A DNA stretch of 64,000 nt, taken from NCBI RefSeq assembly GCF_001610875.1, contig NZ_CP011272.1, forward strand, positions 496,001 to 560,000, in the 5' to 3' direction. Origin of the DNA: Pirellula sp. SH-Sr6A. GTDB taxonomy: Bacteria; Planctomycetota; Planctomycetia; Pirellulales; Pirellulaceae. The notes beneath the pieces are model-generated. The model was not told the DNA's origin, searched no databases, and was given only the letters and a program-made list of their open reading frames with translations. Position 1 is the stretch's first letter; each line of letters opens with the position of its first letter. Both the position numbers and the translations under genes were made by a program. Of this stretch, positions 48,985 to 60,351 are shown in pieces.

Positions 48985-50462
48985 TTATTGATTTTAAGTA
49001 CGATTCCACAGACAGCTACCGAACATTTCTGAAAGTTCGGCAATGTCCTGTTTATCGATTCAAAGGCACATCGGCATTTGTGCCCGATGAATACAGTTCC
49101 GCGTTTGGGTACTCAAGCATCGACGCGAACATAGACTATCAGCCTAGTTCGTTCCTGTTTGACTACCAAAAAGACATTGCACGGATTGCAATTCAAAAAC
49201 GAAAGTTTGCAATCTTTGCAGACTGCGGACTAGGAAAGACGTTCATGCTTTTGGAGTTTGCAAGACATGCGGCAAAGTCCAGCGACGGCAAGGTTTTGAT
49301 TGTCTCTCCGCTCATGGTCTGCAAACAGACGATGGATGAGGCGGCGAAGTGGTATCCAGATTTGCGAGTTGGAGTCATTCCATCCAGCAATCTTAACCAC
49401 TGGATGAATACGACGGTCGAACATGAATGCCAAATCGGATTGACCAACTACGAAGCGATCCGAGAAGGGTTGATTGCAGGTCAATTAAAAGGTCTGATCC
49501 TTGATGAGTCTTCGATGCTCAAAAGTCATTACGGGGCTTGGGGATTGCGGTTGATCGAACTTGGGAGAGGGTTGCAGTGGAAGTTGTGCGCAACAGGCAC
49601 TCCAGCTCCAAACGATCGAATCGAGTTCGCAAACCATGCTGTCTTTCTCGATCGAGCAAAGACCGTCAATGAGTTTCTTGCGTCCTACTTTATCAATCGC
49701 GGAGAAACGCAGAACCGATGGGAGTTAAAACCGCACGCATTGAAGCCGTTTTACCGAAACCTAGCAGACTGGAGCATTTTCCTAACGAATCCAGCAACAT
49801 ACGGATGGAAGGATAACGTCGGAGTCACACCACCTATTCACGTTCATATCGAACACGTCGACCTAACGGACGACCAGCGACAAGCAGCACAGCAACTAAC
49901 TGGAAATCTGTTGACGACTAGCGTCGGTGGTATTGGAGAGCGTGGAAAGCTATCGCAGATCGCCAAAGGCAAAGGGGGCATGGCGACAAACAAGCCATCG
50001 TTTATTAAGTCGATGGTGGAATCTTGGCCGGACGAATCAGCGATCATTTGGTGCAACTACAACGAAGAGCAGGAGTCGCTAGAGCGTGTTTTTCCTGATG
50101 CTGTATCAATCAGCGGAGACACTCCAGAACACAAGCGGCAAGAGTACGTCGATCGGTTCAAGTCTGGTGATGCAAAGGTTCTGATCAGCAAGCCAAAGAT
50201 CCTTGGGTTCGGCTTGAATTTGCAGATATGCACCCGCCAGATTTTCAGCGGGTTGAAGGATTCTTACGAAGAGTATTACCAAGCGGTGAAACGATCCAAC
50301 CGCATTGGTTCAACGCGACCTCTGCACGTTCACATACCAGTTACGGAATTGGAGATGCCTTTTGTCGAAAACGTTTTGCGAAAGGCTGGAAGAGTTGAGT
50401 CGGACACTAGAGAGCAAGAAGAACTTTTCAGAGAGGTAGGACATGCCTGTTTTCAACGATAA
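48981..50462 (+). CDS. SNF2-type DEAD/DEAH helicase
   Basis: A 493-residue superfamily 2 ATPase. Seen: Walker A ADCGLGKT (80-87), DESS box (175-178), CATGTPAPN motif III, and the C-terminal motif QAVKRSNRIGSTRP with the arginine finger. It is followed, with a 20-base overlap, by a DNA methyltransferase; such helicase-methyltransferase pairs occur in phages and may protect the phage genome or open DNA for modification. Confidence 0.87.
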   Translation: MIIDFKYDSTDSYRTFLKVRQCPVYRFKGTSAFVPDEYSSAFGYSSIDANIDYQPSSFLFDYQKDIARIAIQKRKFAIFADCGLGKTFMLLEFARHAAKSSDGKVLIVSPLMVCKQTMDEAAKWYPDLRVGVIPSSNLNHWMNTTVEHECQIGLTNYEAIREGLIAGQLKGLILDESSMLKSHYGAWGLRLIELGRGLQWKLCATGTPAPNDRIEFANHAVFLDRAKTVNEFLASYFINRGETQNRWELKPHALKPFYRNLADWSIFLTNPATYGWKDNVGVTPPIHVHIEHVDLTDDQRQAAQQLTGNLLTTSVGGIGERGKLSQIAKGKGGMATNKPSFIKSMVESWPDESAIIWCNYNEEQESLERVFPDAVSISGDTPEHKRQEYVDRFKSGDAKVLISKPKILGFGLNLQICTRQIFSGLKDSYEEYYQAVKRSNRIGSTRPLHVHIPVTELEMPFVENVLRKAGRVESDTREQEELFREVGHACFQR

Positions 50463-51354
50463 AGAGTGGGAAGTACACAACGGCGATTGCATACCGCACA
50501 TGCTGGACGACATGCCGCCAGAGTCGATCGACTTTGCGGTTTTCAGTCCTCCATTCCCGTCGCTTTACGCATACACCGATTCGGTTTCTGACATCGGAAA
50601 CGTTGACGCGATGGACAACGAAGCGAGAGTACACCTTTCGTTTTTCTTCCGTGGTTTGTCTCGCGTGTTGAAGCCAGGGAGGGCTGCAATCGTCCACGTT
50701 TGCCAGATACCTAGAATGAAGCGAAGCGGCGGCGTTGGTCTTTGCGATTTCCGTGGAATCAATATCAGACTTGGAGAGCGAGCCGGATTGATTTATGAAT
50801 ATGACTGGTCTGTCAGAAAGAATCCGCAAGCACAAGCGATCCGAACTCGGAGCCGTGAATTGCAATTTGCTGGTCTTGAATCCGACAGGTCTGCGCAGCG
50901 TGGAACATTGCAAGACTACTTGATCAAGTTCCGCAAACCAGGCGAGAACGCAGTCAAGATAAATGCAAAAGATCAGGTGAGCCGCAACGACTGGATTAAG
51001 TGGGCGGAAGGTTGCTGGGACGACATTCACGAAACAGACACGCTGAACACGGCAGCAGCTAAAAGCGAGGACGATACAAAGCATATCTGCCCTTTGCAGT
51101 TGGAAGTCATACGTCGATGCGTATTGCTGTTTTCTAATCCCGACGAAGTTGTATTTTCTCCATTCACTGGAATCGGTTCTGAAGGGTTTGTTTCAGTCGG
51201 TGGCAAGTCTCCAAAGACGAAGCTATCGATACGCGACCCAAGGCGTTTTTACGGATGCGAATTAAAGCCAGAGTATTACAAGCAGGCTTGCAAGAATATT
51301 ACATCGGCGGTCAAAAACAGGACGCCAGAACACGACCAAGCGTTATTGTTTTAG
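50443..51354 (+). CDS. DNA methyltransferase (N6-adenine/N4-cytosine class)
   Basis: A 303-residue S-adenosylmethionine-dependent DNA methyltransferase of the beta-type order: catalytic motif IV FSPPF (34-38) comes first, the SAM-binding SPFTGIGSEG near residue 240 later, followed by GCELKPEYY. SPPF suggests N4-cytosine or N6-adenine methylation; the recognition sequence cannot be read. No restriction endonuclease is adjacent, so it likely serves as an anti-restriction or regulatory enzyme together with the SNF2 helicase. Confidence 0.88.
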   Translation: MPVFNDKEWEVHNGDCIPHMLDDMPPESIDFAVFSPPFPSLYAYTDSVSDIGNVDAMDNEARVHLSFFFRGLSRVLKPGRAAIVHVCQIPRMKRSGGVGLCDFRGINIRLGERAGLIYEYDWSVRKNPQAQAIRTRSRELQFAGLESDRSAQRGTLQDYLIKFRKPGENAVKINAKDQVSRNDWIKWAEGCWDDIHETDTLNTAAAKSEDDTKHICPLQLEVIRRCVLLFSNPDEVVFSPFTGIGSEGFVSVGGKSPKTKLSIRDPRRFYGCELKPEYYKQACKNITSAVKNRTPEHDQALLF

Positions 51355-51360
51355 TGCTTT

Positions 51361-51427
51361 CCTGATGTGGTGTTAATCCAGGCAACACGGCGTTAAGCAG
51401 TTGCGGGTTCAAATCCCGCCGTCAGGT
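51361..51427 (+). ncRNA. tRNA-like cloverleaf with truncated anticodon arm
   Basis: Acceptor CCTGATG (51361-51367) pairs with CGTCAGG (51420-51426) over 7 bp with one G-U; TG at positions 8-9; D arm GTGTT/AACAC with a loop containing GG; T arm GCGGG-TTCAAAT-CCCGC perfect. Between the D and T arms are only 14 bases, where a normal tRNA has about 23, so no 5-bp anticodon stem can form. An alternative stem GCAAC/GTTGC would compete with the D and T stems. It lies between the methyltransferase and a small gene. Confidence 0.55.
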
Positions 51428-51467
51428 TTTGTAGGAATTAAGGGACCGAGAAAAGGAAGGTCAGAAG

Positions 51468-51620
51468 ATGAACAACGTGTTCGATTTGGAATGCGAGTTT
51501 GGGGTTATAGACGCACGCTGCGAGTGTGATGTATGTAGGCTCCAGCGTGAGGAAACAGACGTGCGTAGGCAAGCGGTATTGCGTGAGCTTGCGGACGTTC
51601 AGGAAGGCATGGAGGCGTAG
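51468..51620 (+). CDS. Tiny Cys-rich protein (50 aa)
   Basis: Complete ORF beginning MNNVFDLECEF and ending VQEGMEA, with a ribosome binding site (AAAAGGAAGG). It has four Cys (LECEF...RCECDVCRL), which could bind zinc. The next gene starts 2 bases after the stop. Function unknown. Confidence 0.55.
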   Translation: MNNVFDLECEFGVIDARCECDVCRLQREETDVRRQAVLRELADVQEGMEA

Positions 51621-51622
51621 TC

Positions 51623-52381
51623 ATGAGCTTTCAATGGGTGAAAGTGGAGAAGGTGACGGCACGGAAGCCGGAGGTTTTGCGGATTGCGTCCAAGCTGAAT
51701 TTGCACCTGGACCACGCCTTCGGGCTGTGTGTTCGGTTCTGGATTTGGTGCGACGACAACCTAGAAACCGGTAGCGCAATTGGTGTAACACCTGTAGCGC
51801 TCGATGCGCTTCTGAATTGCGACGGATTTGCACAAACGCTCATCGAAGTTGGTTGGCTTCGGGTCCGCAATGGCTCGCTCGAAGTCCCTAATTACGATCG
51901 GCACCTGTCGGAGAACGCTAAAAAACGTGCTCATTCACAGGAAAGAATGCAAGTTTATCGAAAAAAGGCGTCGCAAAAATGTAGCGCAAAAAGTGTAACA
52001 ACAGCGTCACCAGAGATAGAGATAGAGATAGATAGAAGAAAAGAAGAAAAAGAGGAGGTCTATCGATCCGAAGAAACAGAACTTTTGACCATCTGGAACG
52101 ACCGGATGCGGCGAAAGGATCGGCTTACCGACAAGCGACGAAAGGCGTTCCGAGCCAGGCTGGAAGACCGATGGTGGTTGGACAACTGGCGGGAGTCAAT
52201 CGAACGCGCTGTCGAGATGCCGTTCCTCAACGGTGACAACGATCGGGGTTGGCGTGCTGACCTGGATTGGTTTTTGAAACCAGACTCGGTGACGAAGATC
52301 ATGGAGGGCAAGTACGAAAGCAAAACTCCGGTTGGAGTAGTCTATGACCCACTAGCCGAATACGAGGATCTCGATGCTTAG
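51623..52381 (+). CDS. Phage replication protein (replisome organiser-like)
   Basis: A 252-residue protein directly before DnaB. The N-terminal half resembles phage replication initiators with a winged helix (PEVLRIASKLNLHLDHAFGLCVRFWIW...), then a short linker encoded by a purine-rich repeat tract, and a helical C-terminus (TIWNDRMRRKDRLTDKRRKAFRARLEDRW) that could contact the helicase. The role as initiator or helicase loader is inferred from position and layout. Confidence 0.68.
   Translation: MSFQWVKVEKVTARKPEVLRIASKLNLHLDHAFGLCVRFWIWCDDNLETGSAIGVTPVALDALLNCDGFAQTLIEVGWLRVRNGSLEVPNYDRHLSENAKKRAHSQERMQVYRKKASQKCSAKSVTTASPEIEIEIDRRKEEKEEVYRSEETELLTIWNDRMRRKDRLTDKRRKAFRARLEDRWWLDNWRESIERAVEMPFLNGDNDRGWRADLDWFLKPDSVTKIMEGKYESKTPVGVVYDPLAEYEDLDA
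52013..52058 (+). repeat. Purine-rich AGAGAT repeat tract inside the replication gene
   Basis: A run of AGAGAT-type units followed by GATAG and A/G-rich bases, encoding EIEIEIDRRKEEKEE. Lambda-like phages carry iterons within their initiator gene, so this could be part of an origin; it could also be simple coding low complexity. Confidence 0.35.
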
Positions 52382-54612: not shown

Positions 54613-54982
54613 CGTCTGGGATTTCGCTACCAGGACGGGCCAGACGATCGCCCTTGCGACGGTCGTCTGTGTCCTGGGCTGGTTGTATCTCGGAAAGCCT
54701 TCCACGGATGACGGAAAGCAAGACGACAAGCCAGTCGTTCTTGAGCCAATCTCAAAGATCCTCGCGAAGTGCTACGAGGCTGATCGAGTATCGAAGATTG
54801 CGATACTCAAAGGCATCACTGCCAACACTTTTGCAGACGATCAAGCGAAGCTGGAATGGATCAACAGAGAAAGCGAAACGAAGCGAATTGCTGACTTTCA
54901 GGCATATGTTGATCGTTTATCCGAAGCGATCGACACTGGCAAAACGGAAGAACTCGCAAAAGCACTGGAGGCTGGCAAGTGA
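54590..54982 (+). CDS. Single-span membrane protein (130 aa)
   Basis: Starts MTTSQQTNVWDFATRTGQTIALATVVCVLGWLYLG, with one membrane helix near residues 17-35, then a charged helical domain. The start at 54590 is chosen over a long upstream extension. It overlaps the previous gene and couples through GTGA to the papain-like protease gene. Possible lysis accessory or membrane anchor; unproven. Confidence 0.6.
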   Translation: MTTSQQTNVWDFATRTGQTIALATVVCVLGWLYLGKPSTDDGKQDDKPVVLEPISKILAKCYEADRVSKIAILKGITANTFADDQAKLEWINRESETKRIADFQAYVDRLSEAIDTGKTEELAKALEAGK

Positions 54983-55806
54983 GCGACTTTAGCGGCTACC
55001 CAATTGAACAAGAGGACCGTGCGTTCCTTTCGTCGCTTCCAAATGCAGAAGGAAACGTTCCACTGTTTGGATCATACGAAGAGCAGCGTTTAGACCCTCG
55101 CGAATTGATCCCTGTTGAGAACCAAGGCTCTGTTGGGTCGTGTCAAGGACACGCATTATCGAGCTGTATGGAATGGTGTTACGTCATTGCGACCAACGGC
55201 CAACGGCAACAGCTCTCGCGTGCGATGGGTTATTACGAGACGCAACGCATTGATGGCATCAACGGAGACCGTGGAAGCACCATTAGCGGCGGCGTAAAGT
55301 TGGCGAAGAACGTCGGGCTCTGTGAAGAGCCATTGTGGCCATACACCGGACGCTACCAGCCAACTAGACCGGGCAATTGGCAAGCGATTACAGAGAACGC
55401 AGCCAAGTACAAGATCGGGCGCGCGGTGCAGATTCGGACCTACGACGACTTTCGCGCCTTCTCTGGTTCCCTGCAAGGCGGAATCCACATAGGTATTGCC
55501 TGGGGTAACTCGATGAGTAAAGCTGTTGTGGAATCCTTCTCTCCTGGAATGGGTGGGCACGCGATAGCTGGGTTGTGCTTGTCGGATCGAGTGGACTCAC
55601 AAGGGAGGCCTTATGCGTGGATTATGAATTCATGGGGTCAGAACGTTGGCTCGCGTGAGCATCCAGGGTGGCATGAATGGAGTCCGAACGCTATCAGCCA
55701 AATGCTTCGTCATCAATGGACGGAAATGATTGGCATCTCCGACATGCCCGCCGCGAAACCTCGCAAGTTTTCAATTGAGGACTGGAAGTCGAAACTGAGG
55801 GTTTAA
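54979..55806 (+). CDS. Papain-like (C1 family) cysteine protease
   Basis: A 275-residue protein with the complete papain signature: oxyanion Gln49 and catalytic Cys55 in VENQGSVGSCQGHALSS, catalytic His194 in GMGGHAIAG, and Asn217 in WIMNSWG. No signal peptide. It starts with GTG overlapping the previous stop. C1 peptidases are rare in tailed-phage genomes. Position between a membrane protein, a lipoprotein and a holin-like protein suggests a lysis, maturation or host-takeover role, not yet assigned. Confidence 0.87.
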   Translation: MSDFSGYPIEQEDRAFLSSLPNAEGNVPLFGSYEEQRLDPRELIPVENQGSVGSCQGHALSSCMEWCYVIATNGQRQQLSRAMGYYETQRIDGINGDRGSTISGGVKLAKNVGLCEEPLWPYTGRYQPTRPGNWQAITENAAKYKIGRAVQIRTYDDFRAFSGSLQGGIHIGIAWGNSMSKAVVESFSPGMGGHAIAGLCLSDRVDSQGRPYAWIMNSWGQNVGSREHPGWHEWSPNAISQMLRHQWTEMIGISDMPAAKPRKFSIEDWKSKLRV

Positions 55807-59058: not shown

Positions 59059-59352
59059 ATGCGATTAGCTAACGATCCGCCGAATAGCAGCCGGAAGGTT
59101 GTTTTGCGATTTGAAGATAATGGTGAGCAAGACTGCTTTGGTTTTTATTGTGCTGAAACAAATGCTTGGTACAAGACGGACACGAAAGATAGGTGTCATC
59201 CGTCGCATTGGTGCGAGGCTTCGTTTGCGATTTATCAGGTTGTTGAAGACACAGGACGAGTTGTCTTCGACGAATGCACAATGGAAGAAGCATTGCACTT
59301 TGCAGACGCGATCAAAAGACGATGCAAAACGCAAATTGTAGCGATGGTTTAG
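59059..59352 (+). CDS. Phage hypothetical protein (97 aa)
   Basis: No family recognised. MRLANDPPNSSRKVVLRFEDNG, with clustered Cys and His (DRCHPSHWCEA) that could hold a metal. The start at 59059 is chosen because GAGG precedes it; the frame is open to 59029. Confidence 0.5.
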   Translation: MRLANDPPNSSRKVVLRFEDNGEQDCFGFYCAETNAWYKTDTKDRCHPSHWCEASFAIYQVVEDTGRVVFDECTMEEALHFADAIKRRCKTQIVAMV

Positions 59353-59622
59353 AAGTGCGGAGTAGCCAGCCGCTAGTGGAAATACCAAATGTGAGAGAGG
59401 GCAACGGTGAGCACGCAAGTGAGCCCCTTTTCAGCGACGAGACCGATAAGTTGCTGACGGAGCTGGGATCGGAACGCAGCGATCGCAGATGACGAAAAAT
59501 GGTTATTGGGAGGCACGAAACAACCGACGATTCGGGGCCGCATTGCGATGTAAAGCAATGCGGTACAGGTCGAGGATGCCAAATGGTTTCGGAGGCGTGA
59601 CAGGTCGGAGAGACGGCCAAAC

Positions 59623-59734
59623 GGATCGGCGGCGTGAAAACTGGAGGCATCTGGTGATTAGCGTAGGGAGTCCTAGTTTGGCGGGGAGTTGATCGCTCCG
59701 TCGAATGAAGCAGGTTCGAATCCTGCCCGATCCA
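59623..59734 (+). ncRNA. tRNA-like element with oversized middle
   Basis: T arm GCAGG-TTCGAAT-CCTGC (59710-59726) is followed by CCGATCC and A, the usual tRNA 3' end. A perfect partner GGATCGG occurs at 59623-59629, 112 bases upstream of the end. A stem GGAG/CTCC with a 7-base loop TTGATCG (anticodon position GAT) lies between, but no clear D arm was found. Possibly a disrupted tRNA or a long insert. Confidence 0.35.
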
Positions 59735-59863
59735 CTGAGCACTAGCCATCCAAGTAGTGGAGCGACGAGACCGATGGCTTACATCGTCGCCGGGGCCATG
59801 ACTGACAGCAGCGAACGGTGGATGCAAAGCATGGAGACCGTGACAGCCGGAGAGACGGCGCAT

Positions 59864-59934
59864 TCGCGGGTGGTGGTAATTGGTAGCCACAAGGCTTAGC
59901 TATCCTCGTGCGGGTTCGACTCCCGCCCCGCGAT
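59864..59934 (+). ncRNA. tRNA-like cloverleaf (71 nt) with weak anticodon arm
   Basis: Acceptor TCGCGGG (59864-59870) pairs perfectly with CCCGCGA (59927-59933); TG at 8-9; D arm GTGG/CCAC with loop TAATTGGTAG; T arm GCGGG-TTCGACT-CCCGC perfect. The central AAGGCTTAGCTATCCTC gives only about 3 bp around a loop centred on AGC. It could be a divergent tRNA or a mimic without decoding function. CCA is not encoded. Confidence 0.6.
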
Positions 59935-60027
59935 CTTACAAGCAAGTCCAGTCCGGGGGGATTTCGGACACCCAGCTCTGTGTTTTAAGACCGCGCAGAG
60001 CTGGGCTTTGGAACAAAGGAGACCGCA

Positions 60028-60351
60028 ATGGAAGATAAGGAACTAATCGCCAGAGCTATTCAGGGCTGCGTAGTCGGTAACGGCTCTAAGCAAATTGAGT
60101 TGCTAATTGGAGAGTTGGCAAGGATTTGCAGCGAGGTCAAGTATGTACGCAGTCAGTCTTTTTGGCCCCACATGGGCGAGTTCTCGCGTGGATACCAAAC
60201 TGCGTGCGATGAGATCCTGGAAAGAATGAAGCCGTTTGCAAAAGTCGAAGCTGGCAAGCTGACGCTTGAACATTTGGCGAAAAGGCTCTCAGACGTTGAG
60301 CGTTGGATTGAGAGACGCGAAGATTACGAGTCAGAGCAGCGAGAACAGTAG
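60028..60351 (+). CDS. Phage hypothetical protein (107 aa)
   Basis: Helical protein with ribosome binding site AAAGGAG. MEDKELIARAIQGCVVGNGSKQIELLIGELARICSEVKYV, C-terminal coiled-coil-like AKRLSDVERWIERREDYESEQREQ. Family not recognised. Confidence 0.6.
   Translation: MEDKELIARAIQGCVVGNGSKQIELLIGELARICSEVKYVRSQSFWPHMGEFSRGYQTACDEILERMKPFAKVEAGKLTLEHLAKRLSDVERWIERREDYESEQREQ

Follow-up and report, generated by a model that had tools for sequence, protein, structure and literature searches.

The locus and its tRNA-like element

The window, the whole stretch of 64,000 nucleotides analysed here, belongs to the 6.53-Mb chromosome of Pirellula sp. SH-Sr6A and carries on its plus strand a DNA methylase gene (PF01555; 50443-51354) and, beginning 6 nt behind the stop codon of that gene, a 67-nt tRNA-like element (51361-51427), which together with its relatives is here called class 1. 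A leader hairpin, GGACCGAGAAAAGGAAGGTC, lies over the ribosome-binding region (51443-51462, plus strand), and is followed on the same strand by a small ORF of 50 amino acids (51468-51620) with a weak match to PHROG 3407, a family of unknown function, and by a gene for a replication initiation protein (PHROG 2509; 51623-52381) and then a DnaB-like helicase. A promoter-like site was not found within 50200-52200, a result that carries little weight. The genes identified include a sulfatase, and a papain-family cysteine protease gene at 54979-55806, part of the prophage that holds the element, has, by reading, a relative in a third prophage of the same genome (L093:18925-19761).

The acceptor stem of the element (51361-51367 with 51420-51426) is CCTGATG/CGTCAGG, with 7 bp including one G-U pair, and positions 8-9 are T-G. 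The D arm (51370-51388) reads GTGTT-AATCCAGGC-AACAC, and its stem, counted as 5 bp in an earlier sequence-only reading, corresponds to the 4 bp of most relatives plus an extra T-A pair. The T arm (51403-51419) is GCGGG-TTCAAAT-CCCGC, and the discriminator (51427) is a T with no encoded CCA after it. Anticodon arm and variable loop are replaced by 14 nt, GGCGTTAAGCAGTT (51389-51402), in which no stem longer than 2 bp can form (loop of 5 nt, then 4 nt). The sequence-only reading had described complete acceptor (7 bp, one G-U), D and T stems with a canonical T loop, which sequence and Rfam bear out, and 14 bases between the D and T arms without a normal anticodon arm, which the sequence bears out as well. 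Class 1 thus has the 7-bp acceptor, the D arm, the 5-bp T arm with a TTCRANN loop (TTGRANN in four elements discussed below) and the 19-56 pair of decoding tRNAs, while their 5-bp anticodon stem, 7-nt loop and U33 are without a match in the window element.

The Rfam tRNA model RF00005 matches 51361-51427 with 32.2 bits (E 5.4e-5 in a 441-base stretch; gathering score 29), and the whole-genome search returns the same 32.2 bits (E 2e-4). The element was missed by the whole-window Rfam scan with fast filters and by ARAGORN. Folding of the single sequence favours another pairing (z about -2), so the case for the element rests on its homologues. A strict scanner requiring a 7-bp acceptor, a 5-bp T stem and a TTCRANN loop found no match in reversed control sequences (1.14 Mb counted on both strands), and chance is further set aside because the stems are kept by compensatory change in two genomic homologues and in many viral ones. 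An ordinary tRNA overlooked by software is ruled out by ARAGORN, Rfam and the anticodon-arm tests given below. Neither ARAGORN nor Rfam reports a tmRNA in the window, and the GOLLD and ROOL models of Rfam give no match there at gathering, none at E up to 10 in 51200-51640 and none at E up to 1 in 59350-60030. Comparative sequence evidence confirms that the element is a genuine tRNA-like RNA and that it has no arm for decoding.

Copies, viral relatives and covariation

Two further prophages of the same genome carry copies of the element. Copy 2 is at G000:C1 4893079-4893150 (L076:3080-3151) on the minus strand and copy 3 at 1047555-1047628 (L093:15556-15629) on the plus strand; the acceptors of copies 1, 2 and 3 are CCTGATG/CGTCAGG, CCTAACG/CGTTAGG and CGCGTCG/CGGCGCG. 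All three lie directly upstream of replication-initiation genes. Copies 1 and 2 are followed by a small ORF and then by one and the same protein of 252 aa (PHROG 2509), copy 3 by a different protein of 281 aa (PHROG 9474, E 2.6e-12); the upstream gene differs in each prophage and encodes the DNA methylase, a 74-aa protein or a 211-aa protein. The DNA of copies 1 and 2 can be aligned from the element onward, at 98.5% identity, but not upstream of it (3.4 kb compared, 1.2 kb upstream), and between copies 1 and 3 the one significant match (120 bp, 70.8% identical) consists of the element and the leader hairpin. This hairpin, GGACCGAGAAANGGAAGGTC, which folds weakly when alone, was found at three genomic places when up to 3 mismatches were allowed, one behind each copy and all exact, and it also occurs in the viral contigs L115 and L116, there without a preceding element. 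A normal tRNA with an intact anticodon arm at this place in related phages, the outcome that the sequence-only reading had set against itself, was not found in the two other prophages. ARAGORN nonetheless calls copy 2 tRNA-Cys, although its arm is a 3-nt loop on 6 bp of stem; copy 3, called tRNA-Ser, can be read as 5 bp with a 7-nt loop, but without U33. Programs that find tRNAs thus list RNAs of this kind as tRNAs, with unusual anticodons.

Relatives outside the genome come from uncultured viruses. Scanning IMG/VR for the D arm returned 16 contigs, several of them near-identical, with a 5-bp T stem in 16/16, a 7-bp acceptor in 15/16 and, by eye, a normal anticodon arm in none. A scan for the D loop and T loop without a constraint on the D stem returned 43 contigs, some of which are chance matches or ordinary tRNAs once parsed; by reading, D stems change in step (GTGT/ACAC, GTTT/AAAC, GCTT/AAGC), and the constancy of the D loop in the viral matches, which are fragments of genomes, is partly imposed by the search patterns. 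Among the matches listed, 44 elements in 44 loci are fully paired, 41 of them in uncultured viral contigs, and these fall into 23 non-redundant groups. In an alignment of 11 elements 98.3% of cells are paired and both sides change in 9 of 16 pairs, with the D stem invariant as part of the search pattern; the covariation score is 0.595, against 0.199 +/- 0.031 in shuffles (0 of 500 reached it) and at most 0.153 when the alignment is slid. A covariance model built from this alignment, R1, gives its members and their near copies 68.6-85.1 bits and later-found elements 40-77 bits, while ordinary tRNAs in the own-genome loci searched score at most 38.7 bits. The search for homologues with compensatory changes in acceptor and T stems, which the sequence-only reading had proposed as a check, therefore succeeded both in the genome and in viral contigs.

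The sequence of the acceptor, base -1 and the discriminator all vary in class 1, and no identity element is kept in acceptor or discriminator. In the groups of L159, L161 and L166, which share the same downstream gene, the flanks are 78-91% identical and the arm between the D and T stems differs in sequence and length, while L154 has the same scaffold, with 84-88% identity across the element, although its flanks are unrelated. In L165 and L175, class-1-like elements stand immediately behind a tRNA-Gln gene within viral tRNA arrays.

An R1 match in a record picked for the second class described below (L191/L201) has C at 19 and G at 56, and the elbow pair 19-56 was then followed in a viral scan that permitted C or G at both positions. 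The 125 pattern matches among those listed divide into 63 G-C, 13 C-G, 24 G-G and 25 C-C, whereas the 44 fully paired elements among them have 40 G-C, 4 C-G and no mismatched pair, and none of the 49 mismatched matches listed is fully paired. Counted by non-redundant group among the matches listed, the pair is G-C in 20 and C-G in 3. The four C-G elements, which have the TTGRANN loop, show two acceptors, GCCTCTG three times and GGATCGG once, so the reversal represents few independent events, perhaps one. Another C-G element, L250, was excluded for an acceptor that is not fully paired. This pair forms the flat elbow face, a stacking surface for RNase P, T-boxes and the ribosomal L1 stalk, and RNase Z also holds the tRNA elbow (PMC4810234). 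The ribosome and many other users explain why tRNAs conserve their elbow; in class 1 decoding is gone and the elbow is kept, even with 19-56 reversed to C-G, so that what other elbow readers require can be told apart from what translation requires.

For the anticodon arm, a strict test asked for at least 4 of 5 stem pairs in the expected place, a 7-nt loop and U33. It is passed by 2 of 23 non-redundant groups among the matches listed and by 77 of the 84 ARAGORN tRNAs of the genome; the seven of these tRNAs that fail include copies 2 and 3 along with three further tRNA-like RNAs. A loose test, in which the arm may slide, is passed by 7/23 groups among the matches listed, copy 3 being in one of them, and by 80/84 tRNAs. 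The strict passes, L151/L158 and L172, lie at other places and have the 7-nt loop CTTCTAA with U33, the anticodon UCU and a C-A mismatch atop the stem. From their sequences these elements may decode, and as tRNA-Arg(UCU) they could hint at the ancestor of class 1. In 22 groups the arm is a hairpin that starts 0-2 nt past the D stem and ends 3-5 nt ahead of the T stem, with bulge-free stems of 2-13 bp and loops of 3-21 nt, none of them 7 nt by that measure. GNRA tetraloops cap the arm in L162 (GCAA), L167/L174 (GAAA) and L280 (GTAA, read by eye); a loop motif common to class 1 was not seen by eye.

These results bear on decay, which the sequence-only reading had named as the main alternative. 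A pseudogene carried along would account for the lost anticodon arm, and the resemblance of L151, L158 and L172 to tRNA-Arg(UCU) supplies a plausible ancestor. A tRNA pseudogene should lose stem pairing without compensation, and class 1 does not: acceptor and T stems and the 19-56 pair covary, which is unexpected without selection, 21 of 23 non-redundant relatives are without a canonical anticodon arm, and the element is kept beside different neighbours. Decay is rejected on this comparative evidence, and a carried-along pseudogene appears highly improbable. The alignments instead show selection for a tRNA shape without decoding.

The family was sought more widely. R1, run with stricter filters in 392 genomes of the phylum, found above 52.4 bits only the three own copies; the lower matches are presumably ordinary tRNAs. 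A wider pattern matched 5 of 397 genomes of the class, the own genome at three places; the others are L282 and L283, which were viewed and not judged class-1 members, and L284 and L286. L282 and L283, from two genomes of one genus, possibly hold another tRNA-like leader element, which contains TAATCCAGGCATCCAACGCGGGCCGCGAGTCAACGGCCCG and terminates in ACGGGTTCGAGTCC a short distance ahead of a start codon. The sole match of the D-arm pattern in named reference genomes, L150 (Bacteroidetes), is without acceptor and T arm and was set aside as chance. Among the matches listed, blastn of the window stretch, L112 and L159 against isolated phages and plasmids gave T-arm or partial tRNA matches, none with at least 80% query coverage except two tRNA-Trp records of Mycobacterium phage Omnicron (E 8). 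Relatives of the 252-aa replication protein were followed to ten viral loci and one locus in a genome, where ARAGORN reported no tRNA and Rfam nothing at E up to 1, and the small ORF at 51468-51620, used as query, found no relative. No description of the class-1 family was found among the papers listed in the literature searches.

Longer tRNA-like RNAs of the same phages

A class-2 tRNA-like RNA lies at 59623-59734 (plus strand), with the acceptor GGATCGG/CCGATCC and the T arm GCAGG-TTCGAAT-CCTGC; 80 nt separate acceptor and T arm. The consensus of the class, obtained via the strict scanner, is an acceptor GGRTCRG/CYGAYCC, a long variable region and a T arm GCAGG-TTCRAAT-CCTGC, and most members have a D-like arm, GCGTG-GTGGGAA-CACGC, with 87% of cells paired. 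Both sides change in 7 of 17 pairs across 17 sequences, and the acceptor sequence is conserved, unlike that of class 1. Model R2 finds one class-2 copy per prophage (3/3), about 8.3 kb behind class 1, and the insert reads identically in all three. Of 34 viral class-1 records searched with R2, from which near-identical and chance ones had been removed, 8 hold class 2 at a score of at least 60 bits, while class 1 is present in one of the 13 records given for class 2, which are those among 20 new pattern matches that show the structure. Three contigs, L103, L153 and L170, were found by both class patterns, above the expectation under independence in 2.9 million contigs, an overlap to which the preference of both patterns for tRNA-rich phages may contribute.

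A further tRNA-like RNA lies about 130 nt behind the class-2 RNA (59864-59934, plus strand), with intact acceptor, D and T arms, the acceptor and T stems perfect, and no canonical anticodon loop; ARAGORN gives it a 2-nt anticodon, 'ag'. The class-1 model scores it at 32.4 bits, in the range of ordinary tRNAs, and it is therefore not counted as class 1. It is preceded by GTGACAGCCGGAGAGACGGC, with a possible GCCG-GAGAGA-CGGC hairpin, as is a class-2 RNA of L191, and a similar motif stands before 59623. The third prophage has one more tRNA-like RNA at L093:10070-10138; its acceptor, D and T arms are normal, and its anticodon stem of 5 bp is capped by a GAAA tetraloop. Two pairs of tRNA-like RNAs, L091:7319-7397 (minus strand) with G000:C1 4176970-4177063 and L092:3387-3465 with G000:C1 5073719-5073810, have by reading anticodon loops of about 12 nt and about 26 nt. 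A dense array at G000:C1 6053989-6058767 (L079) has 28 matches to the tRNA model, several of them weak (19-27 bits), and resembles mobile tRNA arrays.

Several tRNA-like units stand close together, in arrays, in L200 and L201. Class-2-like RNAs near L200 1450 and L201 1800 (minus strand) have the T loops TGAAAAT/TGAAAAC in place of TTCRANN and a common CTGCTAAGCG-TAAAG segment.

The inserts of class 2 invite a reading in which the element is a trans-acting small stable RNA, its tRNA body a protective scaffold that displays a hairpin or a longer insert. Such an RNA would act through base pairing or by binding proteins, and the phage control circuits close to the replication genes are a possible place of action. 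It would be a natural counterpart of the engineered tRNA scaffold. Class-2 RNAs, from the same phages, have long stretches inserted between their D and T arms, and the insert is alike in the three prophages; the arrays of L200 and L201, the arm that differs among close relatives with flanks 78-91% identical, and a T arm and acceptor-like strand at the end of T4 rnaC point the same way, and tRNA-Other of Bacillus cereus has been proposed as the tRNA-like part of a regulatory RNA (PMC3399842). Against these stand the absence by eye of a class-1 loop motif and the near loss of the arm in copy 1, and we regard this scaffold as a serious possibility with well under an even chance. Somewhat more doubtful still is that the phages run a whole set of non-decoding tRNA-shaped RNAs, comprising class 1, class 2 and others, at times several to a genome and arrayed, a natural scaffold for exchangeable hairpins and inserts that would serve as a regulatory or counter-defence system.

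A candidate processing signal between cistrons

Class-1 elements tend to follow closely on genes. In 13 of 22 groups no more than 15 nt separate the element from the stop codon of the nearest upstream ORF, compared with 373 of 4400 random positions, and an SD-like motif with a start codon follows within 50 nt in 18 of 23 groups, a count made without a control; ORFs were defined mechanically, with at least 50 aa for the upstream one. Outside the own genome, the genes downstream of class 1 differ.

The explanation that we favour, and to which we would give about an even chance, is that class 1 is an intercistronic, non-decoding tRNA-shaped RNA of temperate phages, set between co-directional genes and kept for its fold, with an elbow and an acceptor/T half that recruit RNase P and RNase Z. 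The host RNase P would recognise the elbow and cut at the 5′ end of the element, and the host RNase Z would cut behind the discriminator, so that the element would punctuate the operon transcript and then be freed as a small RNA. Both enzymes read the elbow and the acceptor/T half of a tRNA but not its anticodon. The acceptor/T stack and the elbow, as in substrates of RNase P and RNase Z, are kept by covariation in class 1. CCA is encoded in none of the 84 ARAGORN tRNA genes of this genome (0/84), and the host should therefore need RNase Z. A hairpin in the place of the anticodon arm would need only to fold, which would explain varied loops and tetraloops, and a variable acceptor, base -1 and discriminator are expected if shape alone is read. 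Since RNase P can act on less than the whole elbow, conservation of the D arm may reflect another elbow user. Processing of this kind offers a possible way for phages to cut polycistronic transcripts with host enzymes.

Several observations count against pure punctuation. A cut behind the discriminator would separate the element from the leader hairpin kept beside the three own copies, and the position of all three copies ahead of a replication-initiation gene could reflect gene-specific control. L151, L158 and L172 keep a plausible decoding loop, L165 and L175 lie in tRNA arrays, and the long class-2 inserts fit a released RNA with a task of its own better than punctuation alone. The benefit may lie in the cut messenger (cis) or in the freed RNA (trans), with the free variation of the arm favouring cis and the class-2 inserts and T4 rnaC favouring trans.

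Two other roles would leave the processing enzymes aside. Elongation factor Tu and several charging enzymes read a tRNA at its acceptor and T arm. The retention of these parts, and the position of the element just ahead of ribosome-binding sites, would suit a non-decoding tRNA that can be charged and that donates an amino acid or binds a translation factor, or else a leader structure that acts on translation without being cleaved. Class 1 has neither an anticodon nor a conserved identity element in acceptor or discriminator, and we consider this role unlikely. The sequence-only reading had itself proposed a mimic or decoy, for example against tRNA-cutting defence; such an RNA would occupy tRNA-directed defences or toxins, or be a substrate that escapes them. 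Phage tRNAs do counter tRNA-cutting defence, as with the tRNA-Tyr of T6 against Septu, possibly as decoy or supplement, and in that case the cut falls in the variable loop of a specific tRNA (PMC13096335). Class 1, without an anticodon arm, would offer little to enzymes that cut anticodon loops, and an acceptor and discriminator that vary freely would imitate no one tRNA, so the proposal is unsupported and a decoy role seems very unlikely.

Among known systems, T4 rnaC (species 1 RNA), an annotated small stable RNA, is like class 1 phage-encoded and non-decoding, and its 3′ part has a T arm, CCGGG-TTCGAAT-CCCGG, and an acceptor-like strand, CGTTTCG. T4 rnaC, class 1 and class 2 thus agree in being non-decoding phage RNAs that have a T arm and an acceptor strand like those of tRNAs. 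T4 rnaC differs in its length of 139 nt and its place inside the tRNA cluster of a lytic phage; by the scanner, the partner of its acceptor strand is a CGGAACG inside the RNA, the 5′ end of the RNA being only partly complementary by eye. The likeness to class 1 is one of structure, with no sequence relation shown. In organelle transcripts punctuated by tRNAs, and in mascRNA-type tRNA-like ends, the tRNA shape is a processing signal. The punctuating organelle tRNAs mostly decode, whereas class 1 has lost its decoding arm and stands in phage operons.

RNase P substrates include phage M3 RNA, phage C4 antisense RNA and some mRNAs (PMC11143913). The M3 RNA and the C4 antisense RNA of P1/P7 are thereby phage RNAs other than tRNAs that RNase P cuts (PMC11143913); the element, which is likened to them by description alone, has a complete tRNA elbow. 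The tRNA-Other of B. cereus is a bacterial pseudo-tRNA outside translation and tied to mobile DNA, and differs in being a single gene at an island border and part of a longer RNA, with no covarying family described in the abstract of that report (PMC3399842). GOLLD and ROOL are phage RNAs of unknown function near tRNA islands (PMC12286853), and are, unlike class 1, large RNAs with folds of their own.
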